Part shown: positions 1 through 16,485 of the stretch, one piece after another
Position numbering within the stretch: position 1 is the first letter of the stretch
How the letters are laid out: every line of letters starts with the position of its first letter
Source: Planctomycetota bacterium
Lineage (GTDB): Bacteria > Planctomycetota > Planctomycetia > Pirellulales > PLA5
Length of the DNA: 64,000 bases
Direction of reading: 5' to 3'
NCBI GenBank assembly: GCA_003576845.1
Contig: QEVJ01000036.1
Coordinates: 1-64,000 of the forward strand
Made by a program: the position numbers and the translations under genes
The notes under the pieces: model-generated
What the model saw: only the letters and a program-made list of their open reading frames with translations
Databases searched by the model: none
Told to the model about the DNA's origin: nothing

Positions 1-96
1 GCAATCGGGTGAATTTCGGGCCTTGCGCGGCGAGCGTCAAACCGACCGGAGGGCGAGCCGCGTCGCGGTGGAGAGGCAAGCGGCCGGCGGTTCGGC

Positions 97-1784
97 GGGG
101 GGTGCACGTCGCGGTTTGTTTTTTAGCTGGCTTGGTGATAGCAGCTAGCGTGGATGAGTCGATCGAGGCGGCGGGACCAGAAGCGGGCGACGGCGTTGGT
201 TTGGCTGAGGCGGTCGGCGACGAGTTGGAGCATGGGGTCGCCGCCTTCGTCCCAGAACTTCTCCGTGCCTTTGATGCGGCGGTCGATTTGCTTGATCGTC
301 GACTCCATCGCGGCGGTCGTGATCGGCAGGCCTCGCTTGCGGTACTCGGCGTAGTTCATGCGCGTGCGGTTGTTTGCAAGGTAAGTGAGCACCGTCGCAA
401 CCACGGATCGCGGCGTGCCGGTTTCGTGTTTGTCGGGCGGTCCGAGTTCACAAGACCGCTGCTCGACGGCGGCCAGCAAGCGGTCGATCTCGCCGCTCCA
501 CAACCACTGGGCCCAGTCGCGATAACAGAACCAACCTTCTTCGACCGGTCGGCCCGTCATCGCGGCGGCATAGACGTACATCGGCGCATGGACGAAGTCG
601 AGGATGGGCGTGTAGTGCGAGAAGTGCTCGCGCCACACGCTCCAGTTGGTCGCCGAGCCGTCGCCGAGAAATGCCTTTCGCTCGGCGGCGTGGAAGCCGC
701 GCTCGTAGGCCGCGGCGACGAGTCGCCGGCCGAATGCTTCGACGTCGCCGCTCGTCGCCACGACGCTTTTGACGAGCACTTCCGGCCGCCCCCCGCGATC
801 TTCGGTCTCGGCGACGACTTGTTCCTTGGTTTCGAGCGACGCCTTCGCGTCGTGCGTAAAACCCTTGATTTCCCGAGCCATTTCTCGCATCTTGGCGCGG
901 ATCGGCGAACGCCGCCGGCAACTCGGGGCACGGATCTTCGGGATGCACTTCGCTGGCCATGCTCAGCGGCACGCCGGCTTTGTACTCGCGCCAATGGCCT
1001 TCGCCGTCGGTGGAATCGGCACGCGTCTCGGGCGATGCGTTCTCGCGCTCGTGGACTTGAAACCGCCCGCCGTCCATTTGCACGCACGCCGCGCACGGCA
1101 CTTGCTCGATGGGACTTGCACGCCGCGCCGGTAACGGCAGTTGTTCGTATGCCTGGGCTGCGGCCTGATACTCGGCGATGCGCTCCTCGCCGATGCGTTT
1201 CGCCGCCCGCCAGATGCGCTTCGGCAGCAGCGGCAACTCGGCCAGTTCTTTCATCCCGTCGGAGGCATCCTCGAAGCTCGCCGAATGCGCCGCCGCGAAC
1301 ACGATGCGGCGATACACCCGCGGCGTGTAGGCGTAGTGCGCCTTAATGCCCAATCGCGCCGTCTGAGGGAAAAAAATCCCGCCGACATTGGCGGCAGTGA
1401 TACTTCGCTTCGCTCACCGGAACCGTGCCCCGCCGCGTGATGATCTCGCGGCCGCGGTCCTCCACGCGGCAACCCGCGTGGCCGCAACGCGGACAGCGAT
1501 CGTCCTTCACCTTTTCCGTGTGCCGCGCAAGCTTCTGCACGCCCACTTCCCGCGCCACGAGGTCGCCAATCTCGACCATCGCGTCCTCGACGTCGTCGAT
1601 GGTCTCGTGCTCCCAGGCGTCGCCCTCTTCCTCGGCCTCCGCCGCCAGCACCGCCGCCACCAGTACCTTGAGCCGCTCTTCCCTCTCCTCGATTCGCAAT
1701 TCCCTCGACTTCTTGCTTGCCATCCTTGGCTCCTTTGCCCCAATTGAACCGCGCCCAACACAAGGACGCTCAAAACTGCCCCCC
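97..1784. mobile_element. Possible extent of the ISKra4-like insertion sequence
   Basis: A run of six G at 97-102 (plus strand) and a run of six C at 1779-1784 (G when read inward) flank the transposase remnant at plausible distances, 26 bp past its stop and 61 bp before its start. Beyond the G6 the two ends agree only patchily (TGCACGTCGCGG against CAGTTTTGAGCG), so this is a weak inverted-repeat call. No convincing target-site duplication was seen. Confidence 0.3.
123..1723 (-). pseudogene. ISKra4-like transposase, two frameshifts
   Basis: Three consecutive minus-strand reading frames make up one transposase. The first (start 1723, about 126 aa) has a Cys4 zinc-ribbon segment (CPRCGHAGC ... 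YHCRQC) typical of the ISKra4-family N-terminus. The second covers roughly 1345-890. The third (to 123) carries the C-terminal DDE region, with 'FLGDGSATNW' and a terminal 'AMESTIKQIDRRIKGTEKFW' stretch. The first break lies on a run of seven T (coding strand) near 1371-1377: removing one T gives the continuous reading ..RDFFPQTARLGIKAHY. The second break is near 890-905 and has no homopolymer. Two breaks make an active single protein unlikely. A slippage mechanism at T7 is conceivable for the first break only. Family assignment is from recalled motifs, not from a search. Confidence 0.8.
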
Positions 1785-1939
1785 TATTGTTAACACAACC
1801 CACGCGAGCGCGCAAAGTGCGACATGCACCCTCCCGTCGAACCGCGGCGAACTGCTCTTGCCCGGTCGCGCTTAAGTGCCGTATCTTCTGCGGATTCGCG
1901 GCAACGGCCTGCCCGACTTCCTGCGCTAAGGACGGCGCG

Positions 1940-3100
1940 ATGCGGTTTCGCTTTCAACGTCTGACGACCGTATACCCGGAGTTCGCCGAGCGGTTCGTCG
2001 CGCGCGTGCCGAACGTTCGGGACCTGAGTTACGACGCGCTTTACGCCCGGTTGACCGCCGCCCGCTTTGCCGAGTCGGACTATCACGCGCGGCACATGGG
2101 GGCGCTCGGACACGCGGCCCAGAATTGCTTTCTGTCGCTCGAACCGCTGCAGCGCCGCTGGGCGGCGGAGCACGGCGTCAATTTTCGCGACAAACATTGG
2201 CTCGCCGACATTGCCGTCGAGCAGGTCCGCGCGTTTCAGCCCGACGTGCTGTTCCTCGACGACCTTTACGTGCTGGATCGCTCGTTGCGGACCCGTCTGC
2301 GGCGGGCATGTGCGCATCGGCCGCTCGTGATCGGCTGGCGGGCGGCGCCGACCGACGAGTTCGAGGGCTTCGACGATCTCGATCTCGTGTTGACGTCGAT
2401 CCGCGGCATGGCCGACGCGTTTCGCCGCGCGGGGGCAAATGCGGCGGTGCTGCACCACGGCTTCGAAACGAGCGTGCTCGAAGAGTTCGTCCCGCCACCC
2501 GTTCGCGACATCGAGTTTTCCTTCGCCGGCGGGCTCGGCAACTTGCATCCCGAGCGGGCGACGATGGTTACGGAGATGCTCGCGCGCACGCCGCTTGAGA
2601 TCTGGGGCGCGAATCCGCAAGTCCGGTTCAAGGACCGTTTGCGCTGGCTTGCAGGCCGCGTCGGTGTGCCGCTCAAGACGAAGTACCGGATGCGGACGCT
2701 GCCGCTCGCGTATCCCGGTCGCATCCATCCCGCCGCCTTCGGCTTGGATTACTACGACGTGCTCGCCCGCTCGAAGATCGTGCTCAACCGCCACATCGGT
2801 TGCGCGGGCAACGACGCCTCGAACATGCGGATGTTCGAAGCGACCGGCATGGGGGCGTGCCTGCTCACCGACAACAAACGAAATCTCGCCGAACTGTTCG
2901 AGCCGGGCGTCGAAGTCGTCACTTACGACAGCGTCGACGACGCGATCGAGAAGGTTGATTGGCTCCTCGAGCACGACGTCGAACGCGAGGCCATCGCCGC
3001 CGCCGGACAGCGGCGGACGCTCGAAGACCATTCGTTCGCCGCACGCGTCAAGACGCTCGAAGGAATCATCGGCGACCAGCTTTGTCGCAAGGCGGCGTGA
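1940..3100 (+). CDS. CgeB/GT4-like glycosyltransferase, surface-glycan cassette
   Basis: Probable GT-B glycosyltransferase of 386 aa, cytoplasmic, adding a sugar during surface-polysaccharide synthesis. The ATG at 1940 is preceded by AAGGA (1928-1932); the frame is open further upstream, but that part reads like non-coding sequence at the IS border. The C-terminal half has the features of the spore-protein CgeB / DUF3880 type: 'FSFAGGLGNLHPERATM' at about residue 195, 'YYDVLARSKIVLNRH' and 'NMRMFEATGMGACLLTDNK', the nucleotide-sugar-binding E-x-x-G region, followed by a helical tail with 'HSFAARV'. It is the first gene of a tight four-gene series ending at 5522. The acceptor and donor sugar cannot be told from sequence. 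The position directly beside an IS remnant suggests the cassette may have moved as a unit. Confidence 0.8.
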   Translation: MRFRFQRLTTVYPEFAERFVARVPNVRDLSYDALYARLTAARFAESDYHARHMGALGHAAQNCFLSLEPLQRRWAAEHGVNFRDKHWLADIAVEQVRAFQPDVLFLDDLYVLDRSLRTRLRRACAHRPLVIGWRAAPTDEFEGFDDLDLVLTSIRGMADAFRRAGANAAVLHHGFETSVLEEFVPPPVRDIEFSFAGGLGNLHPERATMVTEMLARTPLEIWGANPQVRFKDRLRWLAGRVGVPLKTKYRMRTLPLAYPGRIHPAAFGLDYYDVLARSKIVLNRHIGCAGNDASNMRMFEATGMGACLLTDNKRNLAELFEPGVEVVTYDSVDDAIEKVDWLLEHDVEREAIAAAGQRRTLEDHSFAARVKTLEGIIGDQLCRKAA

Positions 3101-3101
3101 G

Positions 3102-3124
3102 AGCGGGGACTGGGGACTGGGGGA
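3102..3124 (+). repeat. GGGGACT-type simple repeat
   Basis: Two tandem copies of GGGGACT followed by a degenerate G-rich unit fill most of the 34-bp gap between the glycosyltransferase stop and the methyltransferase start. The same type recurs near 47396-47415. Confidence 0.7.
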
Positions 3125-3134
3125 AAGCGCAACG

Positions 3135-3974
3135 ATGCTCAAGCGGCTTGTCAAACGCTGGCGGCGCGATGCAGGCGGCGGTGCGCATTTCGAGTATGTG
3201 CCGGAGGGTTGGACCCGCGAGACGACCGATTCGCTGGTCAAGGGCTGGAACGTCGCGGCCGTGGTCGATGCCCAGCTCGCGCGGCTCGACGCCTGGCGAA
3301 AGTCGTTCGCGTCCTCGGCGCCGTTGGGGATGAGCGATGCGAGCCGGCCGGCGACGAGCGGCGAAATCGCGACGCACAACACGGCGGTGTCGTTCGCCTA
3401 TGTCGTCGCCCTCGCGGCTCGAAACAAAGACCGGCTGTCGCTGCTCGATTGGGGCGGCGGCGTCGGGCAGTATTGCTTCGCCGCCGAAGCGGCCGCACCG
3501 GGCGTCGCCATCGACTACCACTGCAAGGAAGTGCCGGTCCAATGCAACCACGGCCGCCGCATCCTGCCCCACGCAACGTTCTACACCGACGATGCCCAGT
3601 TCGCTCATCGCCGGTTCGATCTCGTGTTCGCCAGCGGGGCACTGCACTACGCGCAGGACTGGCAGGCCGTGCTCGGTCGCCTCGCCGACGCGACGGGCAG
3701 TCACCTTTATGTCACGCGCCTCCCGGTCGTGTTCGAGTCCGAATCGTTCGTCTACTTGCAACGCGCCTACGCCCACGGCTACGACACCGAATACCTCGGC
3801 TGGGCGCTCAACCGAAGTGCGTTCCTCGCCGCCGCCGAATCGTCGGGCCTCAAACTCGTGCGAGAATTCCTCCTCAACGAATCTGCTCATATCAACAACG
3901 CCCCCGAAGACCCCCAATCCCGCGGCTTCCTCTTCAAGCGCAAGTGTCCCCGTCCCCCGACCCCCGATCGCTGA
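3135..3974 (+). CDS. TIGR04325-like (LIC12133 family) methyltransferase
   Basis: Predicted SAM-dependent methyltransferase of 279 aa in a glycan-synthesis cassette. The start ATG (3135) gives MLKRLVKRWRR. The SAM motif I is very clear: 'LLDWGGGVGQYC' at about residue 98, followed by 'FDLVFASGALHYAQDW' (motif III region) and 'LYVTRLPVV'. This motif set matches the TIGR04325 family found with sugar transferases, as I recall it. The gene lies 34 bp after the glycosyltransferase and 10 bp before the cupin gene, so co-transcription is likely. The substrate is unknown; a nucleotide sugar or a glycan end group is the natural guess. The last residues (KCPRPPTPDR) are encoded by CCCCGACCCCCGATCGC-type sequence resembling the dispersed C-rich tracts, so the original stop may have been shifted. 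Confidence 0.75.
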   Translation: MLKRLVKRWRRDAGGGAHFEYVPEGWTRETTDSLVKGWNVAAVVDAQLARLDAWRKSFASSAPLGMSDASRPATSGEIATHNTAVSFAYVVALAARNKDRLSLLDWGGGVGQYCFAAEAAAPGVAIDYHCKEVPVQCNHGRRILPHATFYTDDAQFAHRRFDLVFASGALHYAQDWQAVLGRLADATGSHLYVTRLPVVFESESFVYLQRAYAHGYDTEYLGWALNRSAFLAAAESSGLKLVREFLLNESAHINNAPEDPQSRGFLFKRKCPRPPTPDR

Positions 3975-3984
3975 CCCCCGGCTC

Positions 3985-4395
3985 ATGCTCGAAACCATCG
4001 AACACAACGGCACGCGCTACGCCGAGATCATCTGGGCCGACACGCGCGTCGACGTCACGACGTTCTTCTCGCCGCCCGAGTCGTCGTTTCAGTTCGGCCT
4101 CTTGGCGCACAAGGCCGGCTTCGTCGAGCCGCCGCACTATCACCAGCCCTTCACGCGGCAGATCGACGATTTGCAGCAGATGTTCGTCGTGCAGCGCGGC
4201 GTCGTGGCGGTCGACTTGTTCGACGACGCAGGGCACAAGCTCCGCGAGATCGTCATGCGGGCCGGCGACGCCATCGTGCTCATCCACGGCGTCCACGCCA
4301 TCCGCGTGCTGGAAGACATGCAGTGCATCACCGTCAAGCAAGGTCCGTTCCTCGGAGCCGAGAAAGACAAAGTTTTCGTGGAGGTCGAGCGATGA
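3985..4395 (+). CDS. Small cupin-fold protein of the glycan cassette
   Basis: A 136-aa single-domain cupin. Residues around 50-95 have the cupin pattern: 'PHYHQP' (two metal-type histidines), 'DDLQQMFVVQRGVVAVDLFDD', then 'MRAGDAIVLIHGVHAIRVLED' with a further histidine in the second cupin motif. The length and context suit the WxcM/FdtA-like sugar-modifying or sugar-binding cupins, but the exact reaction (isomerase, epimerase or none) cannot be read from this. Its stop codon overlaps the start of the aminotransferase (ATGA, 4392-4395), indicating translational coupling. Confidence 0.75.
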   Translation: MLETIEHNGTRYAEIIWADTRVDVTTFFSPPESSFQFGLLAHKAGFVEPPHYHQPFTRQIDDLQQMFVVQRGVVAVDLFDDAGHKLREIVMRAGDAIVLIHGVHAIRVLEDMQCITVKQGPFLGAEKDKVFVEVER

Positions 4396-5522
4396 TTCCC
4401 GTGTTCGAACCGTGCCTGGGCCAGGAAGAAATCGACGCCGTCGTCATGGCGCTCGGCCGCGGCGAAATCTCCGGCTCGTTCGGCCAGGCGATCACCGACT
4501 TCGAAACGCAATTCGCCGCCTACTGCGGCGTCAAGCACGGCATTGCTTGCACGAGCGGCACCACGGCGCTGCATCTCGCCGTCGCGGCCGCCAACATCGG
4601 TCCCGGCGACGAAGTGCTCGTCAGTGCCAGCACGAACATCGCCACGGCGCTGGCGGTCCATCACCACGGCGCCACGGTCGTGCCCGTCGATTCCGAAAAC
4701 GTCACGTGGAACCTCGACCTCGACCTGCTCGAATCGCTGATCACGCCGCGGACCAAGGCCATCATCCCAGTCCACCTCTACGGGCATCCCGTCGACATGG
4801 ACCGGCTCAATGCCATCGCCCAGCGCCACGACCTGCTCGTCATCGAAGACGCGGCCGAAGCCCACGGCGCCACCTGCCGCGGCCACAAGACCGGCGGCTT
4901 GGGGCACATGGCCTGTTTCAGCTTTTATGCCAACAAGATCATCACGACGGGCGAAGGCGGAATGATTACGACGAGCGACGACGCATTCGCCGAGCGCCTG
5001 CGGCTGTTCCGCAATCTCGGCTTTACCACGCCGCGGTTCCGCCACCAAGTCGCCGGCTACAACTTCCGCATGACCGGTTACCAAGCAGCGATGGGCGTCG
5101 CGCAACTGGCCAAAATCGAACGCTTCATCGACGAGAAGCGGCGCATCGCGGCGACCTACAACCGGCAATTGCGCGACGTGTTCGGCCTGCAACTGCCCGT
5201 CGAGTTGCCCTGGGCGCGAAACGTGTATTGGATGTACGCCGTGGCGGTCCAGCCGGAGTATGGCCTCTCGCGCGACGAACTGGCGGCGCGCCTCCGCGAG
5301 CACGGAGTCGAAACGCGGACGTTCTTTTGTCCGATGAACCAGCAGCCGTGCCTCCAAAAACCCGGCCGCCGCATGCCGCCGTGCCCCGTCGCCGATCGGC
5401 TCTGGGAGCGCGGGCTGTATCTGCCGTCGAGCACCAACTTGAGCGACGAAACGATCGCTTCAATCGCGGGCAAGATCAAGGCCGCGTGGGCCGGCGCCGG
5501 ATTGGCACGCCGAGCCGCATGA
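4392..5522 (+). CDS. DegT/DnrJ/EryC1/StrS PLP-dependent sugar aminotransferase
   Basis: A 376-aa enzyme that transfers an amino group, normally from glutamate, to a keto-sugar nucleotide. Features in order: the N-terminal 'PVFEPCLGQEEIDAV' substrate loop, 'GVKHGIACTSGTTALHLA' at residues about 45-62 (PLP phosphate region), 'DAAEAHGATCRGHKTGGLG', and 'YANKIITTGEGGMI', whose lysine at codon 182 is the expected Schiff-base residue. The 'NKxITTGEGG' form is common in GDP-perosamine synthetase-like members, so perosamine or a similar 4-amino sugar is a reasonable guess, not proven. The length is normal. The start overlaps the cupin stop. It is the last gene of the cassette. Confidence 0.9.
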   Translation: MIPVFEPCLGQEEIDAVVMALGRGEISGSFGQAITDFETQFAAYCGVKHGIACTSGTTALHLAVAAANIGPGDEVLVSASTNIATALAVHHHGATVVPVDSENVTWNLDLDLLESLITPRTKAIIPVHLYGHPVDMDRLNAIAQRHDLLVIEDAAEAHGATCRGHKTGGLGHMACFSFYANKIITTGEGGMITTSDDAFAERLRLFRNLGFTTPRFRHQVAGYNFRMTGYQAAMGVAQLAKIERFIDEKRRIAATYNRQLRDVFGLQLPVELPWARNVYWMYAVAVQPEYGLSRDELAARLREHGVETRTFFCPMNQQPCLQKPGRRMPPCPVADRLWERGLYLPSSTNLSDETIASIAGKIKAAWAGAGLARRAA

Positions 5523-5665
5523 CCGTTTGTGATCCAAGCGACCATACATCGACGCGCGGCTAGTACTCGGAGCAGCTTTCAGCCGTGCCCAAAGTGTTGG
5601 TCGATTCCTAAACGCATTGGGATCGAGGACTAAATGACCTCTCAAAGTGCCGCGGGCAACACGAA

Positions 5666-5915
5666 CTAATTCCAGCGGGGCAGAGTGGATTCGAATCGGA
5701 CGCGGAGGTGGTCGACGGAAGTCGCGGCCGCGCGTTGGCCCGTCTTGTAGATGCCGAGGAGCTTGCGGGCGAACACGCGCCAGCCGGTTGTGGTTGTCGC
5801 GCGGCGCACGAAGTCGCGCACCATGTCGAGGCTCATAAGAAACATGCCTTGCAGCGCGCGGGTAATGTGTGGAAACAGCCGGTGCTCGATCAACAACGCG
5901 TTCCCGGCCCGCCAA
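5666..5915 (-). pseudogene. Transposase C-terminal fragment (minus strand)
   Basis: The minus-strand frame ending at 5666 encodes 'WRAGNALLIEHRLFPHITRA', then 'RALQGMFLMSLDMVRDFVRR', 'KLLGIYKTGQRAA' and ends at 'STLPRWN'. This looks like the last 80 residues of a DDE transposase; no start or catalytic part remains. Upstream of about 5915 the frame turns into non-coding shadow of the plus-strand fragment, so the junction of two mobile-element pieces is there. Family not determined. Confidence 0.5.
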
Positions 5916-6060
5916 TCGGATTGCGATTGGTGATCGCCGAAGTTCGCGACGCGGCCGGCCGCGTGTTGGCCGTGTGGTATTTGTTGTCGAACGTTCCGGT
6001 TGACGTCGACGCGGACACGATTGCGTTGTGGTACTATTGGCGCTGGTCGATCGAACTCGA
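5912..6060 (+). pseudogene. IS4-like transposase internal fragment
   Basis: The plus strand encodes 'LRLVIAEVRDAAGRVLAVWY', 'LLSNVPVDVDADTIALWYYW' and 'RWSIEL', the conserved segment before the catalytic glutamate of planctomycete DDE/IS4-type transposases (normally continuing ..RWxIExxFKLLK). The expected continuation is replaced after 'RWSIE' by integrase sequence in the same frame, so this is a fusion remnant of about 50 residues. Confidence 0.6.
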
Positions 6061-7172
6061 TCAGCGGATGGACGACAAGCTGGCGGCCGTCGGGTTGATT
6101 CCCAAGCGGGCCGTGGTGACGCCGGGCCAGTTCCGCGACGATTACATGGCGATGCGGGCGGACACGAAGGAAAGCACGGCGATCATCTTCGGGCATACCA
6201 AACGGTGCTTGCTCGAGTACTTCGGCGCGGACAAACCGCTGCGGGAAATCAACGGCGGCGACGCCGAGGCGTGGCGCATCTGGCTCGGGACCGATCAAAC
6301 GTTGGCCGACAACTCGATTCGGCGGCGATGCGGCTTGGCTCGGCAGTTCTTCCGCCATGCCGTGCGGCGCAAGCTGGTGGGCGAAAACCCATTTGGCGAG
6401 TTGCGGGACGTGGGCGTCCGCGGGAACAAGGCTCGCGAGTTTTTCGTGACCGAAGAAATGGCGCAGGCCGTGCTGGCGGCGTGTCCGGATACCGAGTGGA
6501 AGTTGCTGTTCGCGTTGGCTCGGTACGGCGGCTTGCGGACGCCGAGCGAATCGCTGGCGCGACATCGACCGCGAACGCGATATGATTCGCGTCACGTGCG
6601 TAAAGACGGCGCATCGCTCCGGGCACGGCCAGCGGTGGATTCCGCTTTTCGCCGAGTTGCGGCCGTACATTCCCGTCGCGTTCGACGAAGCGGCGGACGG
6701 AGCCGTGTACGTCATTACGCGGAGCCGCGACCCCAAGGTCAACTTGCGCAAGCGGCTTACCGATATCATCCGCAAGGCCGGCCTGACGCCGTGGCCGAAG
6801 TTGTGGCAGAACCTTCGGGCGACGCGCGAAACGGGATTGGCCGACCGGTTTCCGATTCAGGCCGTTTGCCAGTGGATCGGCAACTCGCAAGCCGTCGCCG
6901 GGTCGCATTATCTGCAAGTGACCGCCGAGCACGTTCGGCAAGCGATCGAAGGTCCGGGCGAAGCGCGGCAAAATGCGCAGCACAAAGCGCAGCAGAAGGC
7001 GTCTGCGAACGCTGCCACCGATTCGCAAGAGGGAACGCGAACCGCAAAACTCGCCGAAAAAAAAAAGCGGTTTTCCCGAGTTTTGGCGATGAGTGCACGG
7101 GGGTTCAAGTGGGCGCAGCAGGACTCGAACCTGCGACTTCGACCTTGTAAGGATCGCACTCTAACCGACTGA
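6061..7172 (+). pseudogene. Tyrosine recombinase/integrase, frameshifted
   Basis: Sequence from about 6061 encodes a phage-type integrase core: N-terminal 'LIPKRAVVTPGQFRDDYMA' and 'GHTKRCLLEYFGADKPLREI' (SAM-like DNA-binding part), then 'LLFALARYGGLRTPSE', which contains catalytic Arg I. The frame breaks near 6550-6560; the continuation in another frame is W-R-D-I-D-R-E-R-D-M-I-R-V, then 'ELRPYIPVAF', 'LWQNLRATRETGLA' (Arg II region), and 'WIGNSQAVAGSHYLQVT' with the catalytic Tyr. The native N-terminus is lost (fused to the transposase fragment) and the frame runs without stop into the tRNA gene (stop at 7170-7172). It lies beside the 3' end of tRNA-Val, the classical position for an integrase whose attachment site is the tRNA 3' end. 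Confidence 0.75.
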
Positions 7173-7183
7173 GTTATGCGCCC
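7110..7183 (-). tRNA. tRNA-Val (anticodon UAC)
   Basis: The minus strand from 7183 to 7110 folds as a full cloverleaf of 74 nt: acceptor GGGCGCA pairing with TGCGCCC plus discriminator A, D-arm AACTCAGTCGGTTAGAGT, anticodon stem CGATC/GGTCG around the loop CTTACAA (anticodon TAC, plus-strand 7147-7149), and T-arm GCAGG-TTCGAGT-CCTGC. CCA is not encoded. An integrase pseudogene abuts the 3' side. Confidence 0.95.
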
Positions 7184-11848: not shown

Positions 11849-13512
11849 ATCTCGATACTCTTCACGCAATTCCCGCCGGAGGCTTGGGCGGCGTAGAGGC
11901 AGCGGCTGGCTTTTTCGACGAGTGCGCTCACCGGGAAGTTGCGTGGCGGGAGAGCGACGGTGGCGACGCCGACGCTGGCGGAGAGATTGGACCACGCTTC
12001 GTCGCCGCGGGATTGGGCAAGGCGCTGAACTGTGGCCGCAATTTGCGAGGCGAGGGCGACGGCCTGGTTGCGGTCGCAGTCGGCGAGCAGCACGGCCCAA
12101 ACGCCGTCGCCGGAGGGAAGGCATTCTACCGCGGGATGGTCGACTTTGCGGCAGACGGCAGCGACCAATTCGGCGGCCTTGGGTAGGTTCTTTGGGCCGA
12201 GGGCAAAGGCGATCTCGCCCAAGCGGTCGATGGCGACGAACAATGCCGAGAGCGGTTCGCGCGATGCGCGGCACGCGGCGACTGCGGCGGCGAGACGGCC
12301 TTCGAGCGCGGGACTCGCCGCAACGTGCGTATGCTGCGAAGGGCCGAGGGTCGGACGGACATTGCTGCGGGCGGCGTGGGCGCGGCGCGGTTGGACGGCA
12401 TTGGACGGCGACGACGGTTTTGCGCCGCCGCCTTCGGAGAGAAATGCTTGCATCGCGTCCGTGAGCGAGAGCGTTTGCTCGTACAGTTCGTCGAAGCCGT
12501 CGCTGGCATACCGCGAGGCGCCTTCGCGAGCGCGGTCGGCGCGGACGACATCGGGCACGACGGAGGCGGCCGTGCTCGCGAGTTGGCACTGCGCTTGCGA
12601 AAGGACTTCGATATACGATGCGCCGCCGGGTAGCGACAGCGAGAGGACGTCGGCAAGCTGCGAAACCTTCGCTTCGAGTTCGCTGACAAGACCGGTGACC
12701 TGGCCGGCGGACCAGCCGTGCTGGCGGCGAACGTAATCCATCAACTCGTCGAGGGCGGTAGCGCGGCGGTCGACGAGCACGCTGGTGAGCAAATCGGCGA
12801 GCCGCACGACGGCGGCCAAACGCTGCTCGCGCTCGGCAAGCGCGGCGATGGCGTCGGGGTTCTCGCTTGCGCCGATCGCGCCGACGATGGTTTCCGGCAG
12901 GTTCCAACCGCGGAGCAGGCCGGCGGAAAGCTGCACGTGGGTGAAGCCGAGCGAGCCGCGTTCGAGCTCGGCGAGCGAGCGGCGTTCGGCATAGACGCGA
13001 TCGAGAAAGCGAACATAGGGTTCGCCCAAATCCCGCACGAGCACGAGGACGCCGACGTCGAGAAGCAGGCCGGCGATGAAGGCTTCGTCGCCGTCGCGTC
13101 GCCAGAGGACGTCAGACAGCTCGCGAGCCGCCACGGCGCGGGTGAGGGCGCGTCGCCAGTAGCGGCCGAGGACGGCGGCTTCGACGCCGGAGAGCATATT
13201 CCCCGGAAGACTGAAACCGAGCACGAGCAGCTTGAGCGGCTTGATGCCCAAGAGGGCGAGGGCCTGATTCAAGTCGCAGATTTCGCGCGGCAGGCCGAAG
13301 AGCGAGCTGTTGACCACGCGGAGGATTCGCGAGGTAAGCGCCGGGTCGTTTTCAATGCACTCTTTGAGAGCGCGGACGTCGACTTTCGGGCTGCCGGTCA
13401 GTTCCAACACTTTCATTGCCACGGCGGGTAGCGAATAAAGATCGCCCGCGCGGACGACGAATTGCTTGAGCGCGGGCGGGGCTTCGGACGGTGTCGGGGC
13501 GGCGTCGCTCAT
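11842..13512 (-). CDS. HDOD domain protein with degenerate GGDEF domain
   Basis: A 556-aa signalling protein if started at [10 protein letters not shown] (13512). The frame is open to 13626 and Met codons at 13557 or 13626 are alternatives; none has a good ribosome site. Residues about 20-220 form an HDOD domain ('[14 protein letters not shown]', '[20 protein letters not shown]', '[19 protein letters not shown]'). A linker of about 150 residues follows, then a C-terminal domain shaped like a diguanylate cyclase ('[17 protein letters not shown]', '[16 protein letters not shown]', '[12 protein letters not shown]'). The GG[D/E]EF signature is replaced by S-G-D-G-V, so cyclase activity is unlikely; it may bind a nucleotide or act structurally. 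It is convergent with tgt, overlapping 7 bp at the stops. Confidence 0.85.
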
Positions 13513-14274
13513 TGCGGAAAAACCGTGCGTTGGCAAGCGGCGTCGGAGGAGGCCCATTAGATCGGACCGAACGCGCGGACGTTCGGACAGCGTAAGTCTA
13601 GCTCGCGAAACGACTTCGGGCCGCATTGCAGGCAGGCGGGACGAGACGCGTTTTTTTCAAAGGGCGTGTGGAACACGAAGACGGAAGTTATTTCAAGGTA
13701 GCAACTTACGGCGAGCGGCGCGGCGCGCATGGACGCCACTGTAGCGAAGGGGTTCGCCCGCAGAAATCTCGGCCGGCCGTAGTGCGGAATGGTTTGCGGC
13801 GTTTGGCGAGTATCAGCGTGGTGGATGATGCGCACTGAAATGCTGATAGTTCGCCATTGACAAGCGGGGGCGCGAAGGGCTAAAACAACCGCACAAGCAG
13901 GCCGTCGCATCGGCATTCATTTCTTTTGTGACGACCCACTTGCAGGCAATACCGCGGCAACGGCTGGACGAAACGCCTTGGCTCCGTGGAAGACCGTTCG
14001 CGTCGCGCGGCCGGTCGCCGATTTTCACCATTGATTTGCACGCCACGGGACGTTCTTGGCGATTCGTTGCGACCGACGCACCGTCGGTGTTGGCGACGGC
14101 GTGGGCGGCAGTTTCGCAGGCTTTTTGCGAGCCGGTAACGCGGGCTGAACGCAGCGCGGTTAGCATTGGGATTAGGGATTTCCCAATCGCAGCGGGAACA
14201 AGGATGTTCTTCCCTGGCGAGCTAGCAGGGCCGGTTGCTCAAATACCGGTCCGTACAGCACAAGGAGGAACACG
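13513..14274. other. Long intergenic region, no supported gene
   Basis: 760 bp between the divergent HDOD and BON-domain genes. Frames of 60-122 codons occur on both strands (for example 13928-14296 plus and 13813-14166 minus), but they show no family resemblance, hydrophobic pattern or ribosome site. Promoters for both flanking genes are expected here; I could not identify clear -35/-10 boxes. Confidence 0.5.
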
Positions 14275-14598
14275 ATGTCTGAATTGCATTTGTTGACGCC
14301 GCTTTCGGAGGCGGCAACGGCCACGGCGGAGCTTCCCGCGGAGTTGACTGGTTCGGGGCCGGGTTCGACTTCAGTCTGCGAGCCGCGGGTCAATCCGGGC
14401 GCGGTCACGCAAGCCGTCGAACGGGCGATTCGCCGCGAAACGCGCGGCGGTGTGCAGGACCTGAAGGTTATCGTTCGCGCCGACGGGGTGCATCTGGCCG
14501 GCTGCTGCCCGACGTACTATTGCAAGCAGCTTGCACAGCACGCGGCATCGACCGTCGTCAATGGAACGCGGTTGCACAACGAGATCGAAGTTTGGTAG
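14275..14598 (+). CDS. BON-domain protein
   Basis: A 107-aa small protein. A good ribosome site (AAGGAGG, 14261-14267) lies 7 bp before the ATG. The first 45 residues are low-complexity (Ala/Thr/Glu). Residues about 45-107 read as a BON module: 'VERAIRRETRGGVQDLKVIV', 'RADGVHLAGCCPTYYCKQLA', 'TVVNGTRLHNEIEV'. BON modules bind phospholipid or other surfaces, and in planctomycetes many short cytoplasmic ones are known without assigned function. The cysteines in 'GCCPTYYC' are typical of this planctomycete form. It is followed 114 bp later by a glycosyltransferase gene. Confidence 0.75.
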   Translation: MSELHLLTPLSEAATATAELPAELTGSGPGSTSVCEPRVNPGAVTQAVERAIRRETRGGVQDLKVIVRADGVHLAGCCPTYYCKQLAQHAASTVVNGTRLHNEIEVW

Positions 14599-14712
14599 AA
14601 GTCGTCCGTACGCGCGACGGCTATCCACGAGCGTGCAGGTTTGCGCTGTGTAGGCGGGCGATTTACTCGCACCGCGCCGTCGCCGCATGTTCTTGATTTG
14701 CGCGGGACAAGG

Positions 14713-16485
14713 ATGTCCAAGTTCATTCTGGTCGATCACTCGCTCAAGGGCGTCGGCGGGCATCACTACGAGTATGCCGCGCACGTGCTATCGGCCGCAG
14801 AACGGGCGGGATACGCACCGGTGCTCGCGACGCATCGTCGATTCCGGCCGGGTCGCGACTATTCGCGGTATTGGCCGACCTGGCCGATCTTTCGATACAC
14901 GACGTACTCGAAATTCACCGTGTATCGGAGCCAGCCGCATCGCGACGCTAGCGGCGCGGGGCGAATCGCCGGGCGGTGGAATCTTAGTGGCGTCGGCGAG
15001 CGCGTGAAGGACTTTCTGTATCGCCGCGGACGCGAGAAGCGCGTGGCGGCAATGGCCGCGGGACTTGCGCGGCTCTTTGCCAGGGAGTCAGTCGCGGCGG
15101 GCGATCAGGTATTCGTGCCGACGCTGTCGGAGCTCGATCTCGAAGGCGTGGTGCGGTTTCTAGAAGCGACGCCGAGCACGCAAGTCGCCGACTGGCACTT
15201 GCAGTTTCACTACAACATTTTCGACGGCCGCGAACCGGAGTTCGCCGCGCAGGCGGGCAAGCTCGACGTAATGCGCGAGGCGTTTGCGGCGGCGCTGGCG
15301 CGGACACCCAATCATCGGCTGCACTTCTACAACACGACCGAACAGCTTGCGGCGCAGTACGAGCGGATGGGATTGGCGGCGTTTCATGCGCTGCCGTATC
15401 CGGTCAACGAGGCGCTCGCGCGGCGCGACGAGGACGGGGCGGCGGATGCATCCGGCGAGATTGTGGCGACGCCGCGGCCGCTGCGGATCGCGTGCTTGGG
15501 CGCGATTCGGCCGGAGAAGGGCGCGGCGGAGTTGGCTGGCGTGGTCGAGGCCTTGTGGGACAGCCACTTCCTGCCGGGGCGATGCCAACTCGTCGTGCAG
15601 TCGAACAAGCGGCGGTTTCGGCTACCGCTGCCGGTGGACGACGCAGACGAACTGCCCGAGGGCGTCGAGCCGGTGGTTTATGCACCGCATCCGTTGCCGA
15701 TGGAGACGTATGTCGAATTGATCCGCGCCGCGGACATCGGCCTGTTGCTTTACGACAGTCGGCGGTATTACGCGCGGTGCAGCGGCGTGTTGGTGGAGCT
15801 GTTGAGCGTGGGGACGCCCGTGATTGCCACGGCTGGTTGTTGGATGGCCGAGCAACTTGCCGAGGCGAACTTCGCGCATCTCGACGGCGCTCTGCGCGAG
15901 TTGAAGCGGGTGCGGTGCATCGATATGGGCGGCGTGCAAGTTCCCGGAGGATCGCGGGACGTGGTGACCGATGTCGAAGTCCCGCGGACGGCGACGCACG
16001 CGATGTGTTCGTTCCGGTGGCGGTTTCCGAGCGAGGCGGGAACGTATGTGCGGGTGTCGCTCGAATCTCCGTGCGACGAGGAGCAGGAATCGACCGGGCC
16101 GTCGTTCATCCTCGGGAGACGAGCGGGAGACGGTCTCGTGCGCGCGATGTTTCCCGTCGATCCGAGCGCGAATCGGGTGCGCTTGCGGTGGGAGAACGCT
16201 TACGACAGTGGGCCGATTGCGCTCGCCGACGTGCAAATTGATCTATTATCGGCCCAACATCTGCCGGGAGCGACGTATCCATTCGGCGCGGTGGGGCTCG
16301 TCGCGGCGGACGATTCGCAAGTCGCCCCGCTCGTCGACGACATGGTCGCGCATTGGCTGCACTACCGGCGGACCGCGCTCGAGTTCGCGCAAGGCTGGTC
16401 GGCATTTCACAACGCGGATCGGATTGTGGCGGAGTTGGCACAACGCACGCGTACGTCCACGTCGCATGGCCTGAGCGCGGCGTAA
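14713..16485 (+). CDS. Large GT-B family glycosyltransferase
   Basis: A 590-aa protein with ATG 14713 after a GGACAAGG ribosome site. The N-terminal half begins 'FILVDHSLKGVGGHHYEYA', a glycine/histidine acceptor loop. Around residues 255-330 comes the GT-B hinge 'PLRIACLGAIRPEKGAAEL'. The donor-binding motif is 'LIRAADIGLLLYDSRRYYAR' plus 'CSGVLVELLSVGTPVIAT' (E-x7-E-type region). About 170 residues beyond the second Rossmann domain contain beta-rich sequence ('MCSFRWRFPSEAGTYVRVSL'), an uncommon insertion or lectin-like module within the glycosyltransferase. No signal peptide. Donor and acceptor unknown. It stands alone, not in the polysaccharide cassette at 1.9-5.5 kb. Confidence 0.8.
   Translation: MSKFILVDHSLKGVGGHHYEYAAHVLSAAERAGYAPVLATHRRFRPGRDYSRYWPTWPIFRYTTYSKFTVYRSQPHRDASGAGRIAGRWNLSGVGERVKDFLYRRGREKRVAAMAAGLARLFARESVAAGDQVFVPTLSELDLEGVVRFLEATPSTQVADWHLQFHYNIFDGREPEFAAQAGKLDVMREAFAAALARTPNHRLHFYNTTEQLAAQYERMGLAAFHALPYPVNEALARRDEDGAADASGEIVATPRPLRIACLGAIRPEKGAAELAGVVEALWDSHFLPGRCQLVVQSNKRRFRLPLPVDDADELPEGVEPVVYAPHPLPMETYVELIRAADIGLLLYDSRRYYARCSGVLVELLSVGTPVIATAGCWMAEQLAEANFAHLDGALRELKRVRCIDMGGVQVPGGSRDVVTDVEVPRTATHAMCSFRWRFPSEAGTYVRVSLESPCDEEQESTGPSFILGRRAGDGLVRAMFPVDPSANRVRLRWENAYDSGPIALADVQIDLLSAQHLPGATYPFGAVGLVAADDSQVAPLVDDMVAHWLHYRRTALEFAQGWSAFHNADRIVAELAQRTRTSTSHGLSAA

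Follow-up and report, generated by a model that had tools for sequence, protein, structure and literature searches.

The transposase fragments and broken integrase that crowd against tRNA-Val(UAC) near the left end of this contig raise the question of whether the tRNA gene is the attachment site of a genomic island and, if so, where the other end of that island lies. The window is the whole 64,000-nucleotide stretch analysed here, taken from the very start of contig C245 (96,745 b) in a 7.05-Mb assembly of 289 contigs. The features that bear on the question are the following.

1–1842, minus strand: ISKra4-family element with broken frames, its end cut by the contig start (NCBIfam transpos_ISKra4)
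1787–5522, plus strand: intact glycan-type cassette, possible island cargo (Pfam; 81% DNA identity to G001, a genome of the same genus)
5614–5891, minus strand: ISAZ013-family transposase element, relic of its end (PF07592, E=1e-13; DNA homology limits)
5892–~6060, plus strand: probable IS4-like transposase relic in place of the integrase N-terminus (NCBIfam IS4 models, E=0.001–0.002; motif; single copy)
6061–7100, plus strand: tyrosine integrase pseudogene running into the tRNA 3' end (tblastn with intact integrase P0002; PF13102; frame analysis)
6968–6982, plus strand: putative P arm of attP, GCAAAATGCGCAGCA, within the integrase coding region (repeated at C136:13392-13406)
7109–7183, minus strand: tRNA-Val(UAC), attachment site (attB) (ARAGORN)
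7110–7131, no strand assigned: att core TGGGCGCAGCAGGACTCGAACC, the 3' end of tRNA-Val (second copy at C136:13312-13333; whole-genome pattern search)

Three relics are arranged nose to tail at 5614–7100 and abut the 3' end of tRNA-Val(UAC). The minus-strand piece corresponds to the last 74 positions of Pfam PF07592, DDE_Tnp_ISAZ013 (profile 230–303 of 308, E=1e-13), and its DNA homology to other copies in the genome stops at 5614 and at 5891. The breakpoint with the following piece is therefore placed at 5891/5892. Two otherwise diverged ISAZ013 copies, at G000:C165:213-265 and G000:C57:1-37, carry 53 bp and 37 bp that are 100% identical to window 5839–5891, which suggests recent exchange or shared junction pieces. 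The plus-strand piece contains the motif YYWRWSIE and matches NCBIfam transpos_IS4_3 (E=0.001) and transpos_IS4_1 (E=0.0019), which are weak matches of a 50-aa piece, far under the cut-off. A Pfam search gave no match for this piece, and no second copy was found in the genome or in 57 relatives; its identification at 5892–~6060 as an IS4 transposase segment is for these reasons probable only.

The integrase that follows matches residues ~63–398 of an intact integrase from the same genome with 47–51% identity (tblastn, combined E=1e-84). The homology falls into two blocks in different frames with a break near 6550, and a second shift, at the A10 run at 7057–7066, is needed to reach the frame of the tail described below. 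The first ~62 residues are replaced by the ~150-base IS4-like piece, and the N-terminal arm-binding domain, predicted in relatives as three strands and a helix at residues 1–53, is absent. The R, K, N-x-x-R and Y motifs are retained (GGLR, KTAH, NLRATRE and HYLQV respectively), and intact copies of the integrase carry PF00589. The junction between the IS4-like piece and the integrase is open in frame for approximately 200 codons. These features support the view that the window integrase is an IS-battered relic, not an intact enzyme, in an island that has decayed. The sequence-only reading had already described two transposase pieces and an N-terminally truncated integrase beside tRNA-Val, along with a chimeric frame of ~200 residues ahead of an integrase frameshift, and the profile, homology and tRNA searches and the frame analysis agree with it. 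The breakpoints that it regarded as shared do abut, although at a junction about 20 bases to the left of the proposed 5912–5915, and its IS4-like label is a weak one, backed by the motif and the low-scoring NCBIfam matches and by no Pfam match.

A whole-genome pattern search with the 22-mer at the 3' end of tRNA-Val, TGGGCGCAGCAGGACTCGAACC, identifies only one further copy, located at C136:13312-13333, where no tRNA is predicted by ARAGORN. The core on C136 is followed in frame by a protein tail, GAAGLEP-DSVT...DADLAAVVAAWPGLSADDRAAVLRVV, the frame that stays open past the core on the island side being ...DSVTCCSVKDSQESDNPGAAKCAAVGAPSGHFDPALVDADLAAVVAAWPGLSADDRAAVLRVVTRAVGGP, with the tail at C136:13334-13547. 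That the native 3' end of the integrase lies at the far end of the island had escaped the sequence-only reading. The island side of this contig comprises positions 13,334–14,963, where the contig ends. A DUF433 and DUF5615 (PIN-like) gene pair is found just inside the distal end, at C136:13620-14400, and resembles a passenger of the toxin–antitoxin type. The window integrase is presently out of frame with the C136 tail, a disagreement caused by the integrase frameshifts. A full tRNA gene and a displaced 3' fragment in the same orientation, one of the features by which Islander defines a tRNA-integrated island, are present in the window and C136. The proposal that tRNA-Val serves as an island attachment site is supported by this 22-bp copy outside any tRNA; the direct repeat of the tRNA 3' end that was expected to the left was found, though on C136 and not leftward on the window contig. 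No contig sequence precedes window base 1, which is why the second copy could not have been leftward on the same contig. In this assembly the two island ends sit on different contigs, and in 24 elements from relatives both are on one contig. Because C136 and the window are separate contigs, the physical island between them is inferred. A join of C136 to the start of C263 through a 31-bp near-match was considered and left unused, the match being short with one mismatch.

A second repeat ties C136 to the window integrase independently of the tRNA core. The longest string common to the flanks of the two cores is the 15-bp GCAAAATGCGCAGCA, and among 21 flanks compared, the window's own distal flank ranks first with 15 bases shared versus at most 10. 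The core copy, the integrase tail and this element-specific arm repeat together are the reason for regarding tRNA-Val as the attachment site and the window as one end of an island, with the tail frame and the arm repeat connecting that site to the window integrase itself.

The tail on C136 has counterparts elsewhere. A tail search in relatives finds further copies, nearly all located directly behind a piece of an antisense tRNA 3' end. Across Planctomycetota, a total of 24 pairs of tRNA and distal end are on the same contig, 14 from the genome set and 10 from named genomes, with cores of 14–60 bp. The integrase frame, taken as the longest open frame reaching the tRNA, is the same as the tail frame in 23 of these 24 pairs; the chance of at least 23 agreements at one in three each is about 2e-10. 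The exception, L252, lacks any integrase ORF beside its tRNA, and the frames open next to the tRNA in a few other pairs are short (35, 61 and 129 codons). Shared strings of 14–60 bp are present in 14 of the 18 same-strand tRNAs tested; about 700 control comparisons with other sequence gave no more than 12 bp. The first set comprised 30 tails, 16 of which were without a tRNA partner in the stretch covered, several because the contig ended. Three more pairs are on split contigs, namely window/C136, C288/C10 and, in G001, C67/C399 with a 23 bp core. Within the source genome, the tRNA-Glu on C21 has a 21 bp core and a second core 10.4 kb away, in frame, and the tRNA-SeC pair C288/C10 shares a 35 bp core, also in frame. 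This latter core extends about 10 bases past the tRNA, and the attachment site is here a selenocysteine tRNA. Among the targets are tRNA-Val, Glu, Met, SeC, Lys, Ser, Phe and Gly; one tail copy, at G000:C265:18475 (L300), sits behind an antisense fragment that is tRNA-Leu-like and longer. Of 297 genomes in one order, 140 contain the tail signature, and all 80 named tail matches belong to Planctomycetota, including Adhaeretor mobilis and Blastopirellula marina. The closed genome of Adhaeretor mobilis HG15A2 (NZ_CP036263.1, G107) has five tail matches, three of them with in-frame partners, at tRNA-Val, tRNA-Met and tRNA-Glu.

Natural unsplit genes also occur. On C21, which holds a tandem array, the second integrase is encoded by a single ORF that passes the second core and continues into the tail, and a full-length integrase gene is restored. 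The array (G000:C21:50801-62700, L103) is located at tRNA-Glu(UUC); its first element carries a DUF3987 (primase-like) protein, and it is the tail of this first element that makes the integrase of the second full-length. The other unsplit gene, L295, encodes an integrase of 496 aa and lies on a viral contig that has no tRNA. One ORF thus crosses attP in the second C21 integrase and in L295, with the window element known from two halves only. Tail alignment identified one full-length case in the viral collection, a search of the same collection with the C21 protein gave no match, and phage integrases gave weak general matches only. Plasmids were searched for a free element by tblastn of the full-length C21 integrase, and no match was obtained. 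In the integrases of the window, C21 and L295, the core lies roughly 55–75 residues past the catalytic Tyr, and the integrated form ends within roughly 10–20 codons of antisense tRNA (longer in G012).

Both flanks of the core carry a direct repeat, typically GCGGCGCAGAATSCGGCGCA, that ends ~110 bp to the left and starts ~42 bp to the right. The repeat varies among elements and agrees within an element (none of 100,000 permutations as good, p=1e-5). It is recognisable in most elements, with only chance-length repeats in G015, G012 and G107c, and in the unsplit L295 gene both repeats and the core are contained within one ORF. These repeats resemble P and P' arm sites as known from heterobivalent integrases, and are considered putative arms. 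The arm DNA is read in two frames, as AAQN in the integrase and as SGAESGA in the tail. Protein conservation was ruled out as the explanation of the arm motif because GC3 of the arm block is low, differences are few at all codon positions and the repeats follow the element. An attP with two arms inside the integrase gene is deduced from the 23 in-frame pairs among 24 and the two unsplit full-length integrases, and sequence support for this arrangement is good. Beyond the arm, the tail shows codon-position differences of 0.33/0.24/0.52 and a GC3 of 0.81, a coding signature that marks it as protein-coding. AlphaFold predicts the tail to be a compact helical hairpin of two helices at residues 463–494, with block pLDDT mostly 83–95, preceded by a disordered linker in which the arms and core are located. 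The predicted fold matches lambda Int, including its N-terminal region (1z1b), and Tn1549 Int (6en2).

The window is accordingly read, with a probability of roughly 0.88, as the tRNA-proximal end of a decayed integrative element belonging to a planctomycete family of tRNA-targeting tyrosine integrases with attP inside the integrase gene, in its 3' part. The integrase of the free circle would read through the first arm, the core (the antisense tRNA 3' end) and the second arm into the conserved tail. Recombination at the core with a tRNA gene would split the integrase gene, leaving the catalytic part beside the tRNA with a short antisense-tRNA end and the native tail, still in frame, at the far end, here C136:13334-13547. 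Since these elements appear to hold the attachment site inside the integrase gene, the tail of the enzyme would be swapped at each tRNA insertion, ~60 native residues being exchanged for the short antisense-tRNA tail. The window integrase would have been broken later by transposon remnants and frameshifts. The split arrangement, the frame agreement, the arms and the natural unsplit genes are established at the level of sequence comparison. By analogy with the phage Mx8, long- and short-tailed proteins may both be made and differ in activity, the swap acting as a switch between integration and excision. The long form would then be the integrating enzyme of the free circle and the short form an altered enzyme made after integration; the direction may be set by protein–protein or protein–DNA contacts of the tail. 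Even odds are given to the broadest version of this model, according to which tRNA-integrating elements throughout the phylum Planctomycetota switch their own integrase: the free circle would encode the long form with its conserved helical-hairpin tail, the integrated element would encode the short form with its antisense-tRNA end, tandem insertion or excision would restore the long form, and a two-armed attP in coding sequence would serve as binding site in DNA and as peptide in protein.

Three other explanations were weighed against this reading. Most tRNA islands have attP beside and not inside the integrase gene, and by this usual design the locus would be an ordinary tRNA island with the distant tail ORF as an unrelated small gene near att. 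The conserved SGAESGA part of the tail would fit such a design, as it is explained by DNA arm sites rather than by protein; however, the frame agreement in 23 of 24 pairs and the coding signature of the tail past the arm oppose it, and the unsplit genes with integrase, core and tail as one ORF already contradict it, which makes this explanation improbable. Slightly less remote, and still unlikely, is the origin of the C136 att copy from another element formerly integrated at that tRNA. Tandem arrays are present in this genome, as on C21, and C136 and the window are unjoined, but C136 contains the window's arm variant, GCAAAATGCGCAGCA, and its flank matches best among the 21 (15 bp versus no more than 10).

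The remaining explanation concerns the chimeric frame of the IS4-like piece and the integrase, which could be a new functional fusion gene made by transposition, given that the junction is in frame and open for ~200 codons. Open frames are common in DNA of ~64% GC, though, and this one is followed by frameshifts near 6550 and at the A10 run and has lost the N-terminal domain. The IS4 piece is in none of the relatives searched, and the same tRNA in the sister genome G001 has an independently broken integrase that is cut by an IS66-like piece. The fusion gene is the least credible of the three explanations and can practically be dismissed, leaving a decayed element with attP inside its integrase gene as the preferred reading of the window.

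The left part of the window contains the ISKra4-family element and the glycan-type cassette. The transpos_ISKra4 model of NCBIfam matches 123–890 (E=1.5e-33) and 1343–1723 (E=1.3e-4). The cassette consists of a glycosyltransferase, a methyltransferase, a 136-aa protein and a DegT aminotransferase (Pfam PF13524, PF13489 and PF01041), with no family match obtained in a search with the 136-aa protein. The only same-genus genome compared was G001, in which the cassette (window 1850–5527) is found at 81% DNA identity at G001:C618:8-3687, on a 3.8-kb contig with unplaced ends. ISKra4-related copies in this genome stop at the same place as the window copy, and the cassette's left edge falls, in either genome, on a break at or close to an ISKra4 end. 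ISKra4-type copies at G001:C683, C732 and C589 end at what is the left edge of the cassette in the source genome, and this point is also where the G001 cassette contig begins; the IS–cassette junction may be common to both species.

The tRNA-Val of G001 is 97% identical to that of the window and is adjoined by an integrase remnant, with no cassette beside it. The remnant consists of the C-terminal part only, with an IS66-like piece fused in frame; it is located at L033:9622-10293 (G001:C518, minus strand), includes an IS66-type zinc finger and has Asp at the position of the catalytic Tyr (RHDLQV). The two tRNA-Val loci are, as far as sequences can tell, a case of parallel decay of the same locus. 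The remnant is followed by SDR, cytochrome-assembly-like and glutamyl-tRNA-reductase-like genes (by reading ORFs), and the genes neighbouring the G001 tRNA-Val are located elsewhere in the source genome. G001 was rejected as an empty-site comparison, having its own integrase remnant at tRNA-Val and different neighbours on both sides. Because the cassette is absent beside its tRNA-Val, the cassette is regarded as common to the genus but not fixed to this tRNA. The sequence-only reading took the whole 1–7.2 kb for a possible decayed island; the G001 data fit a moving cassette and do not demonstrate its arrival with this integrase, and its inclusion in the tRNA-Val island is slightly favoured. 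The same cassette at tRNA-Val without an integrase was not seen in this one same-genus genome.

Several known systems resemble the planctomycete family in part. Lambda Int and Tn1549 Int, both heterobivalent, are similar in predicted fold and in the layout of core and arms. The attP of lambda adjoins int and is not inside it, whereas the planctomycete arms and core are coding. The SSV-type 'suicidal' archaeal integrases are similar in that tRNA-directed integration splits the gene at an internal att site. The SSV split severs the catalytic domain from the N-terminal part, leaving two inactive pieces; the planctomycete split lies behind the catalytic domain, and therefore the integrated copy retains all catalytic residues. 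Closest in design are the phages Mx8 and Mx9, for which published accounts place attP inside the tyrosine integrase gene, integration of Mx8 replacing a native C-terminus of 112 residues by a short new one of 13 residues and lowering or altering the activity (PMC4701971, PMC6070905, PMC4383910). The planctomycete family likewise has attP within int and an integrated form with a different C-terminus. It differs in having another, conserved tail and matched arm repeats in the coding region, and in spanning a phylum, many tRNA types and non-phage islands. A single comparison of the planctomycete and Mx8 integrases gives 22% identity over 209 aa (E=0.003), which reflects the general fold only. Streptococcal ICEs in rumA also carry the att site in an integrase gene and have a different integrase C-terminus when excised (PMC4701971), but use a serine recombinase and a protein-gene target in place of a tyrosine recombinase and a tRNA. 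Islander allows att fragments that overlap integrases, since the Mx8 and SSV integrases extend across attP (PMC4383910). The streptococcal ICE study states that attP lies within the integrase in very few elements (PMC4701971), and a review of archaeal recombinases describes self-disrupting integrases as exclusively archaeal (PMC8371274). A literature search returned no report of a phylum-wide tRNA-targeting family, or of planctomycete tRNA islands, of this design.

The window locus itself is genuine but, as the end of a decayed tRNA island, ordinary. Self-altering integrases have so far been treated as rare curiosities, represented by Mx8 in bacteria and the SSV types in archaea, and in planctomycetes they would be the built-in design of a common element family. 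Integrase ends resembling GLEPATSxL would be explained as integrated forms with the native end kilobases away. A search for orphan tails, with the tRNA read from the preceding bases, offers an easy way of locating islands and their limits in a phylum with little-studied mobile elements. As cultured carriers exist (Adhaeretor mobilis HG15A2 and Blastopirellula marina DSM 3645), the proposed switch is directly testable.
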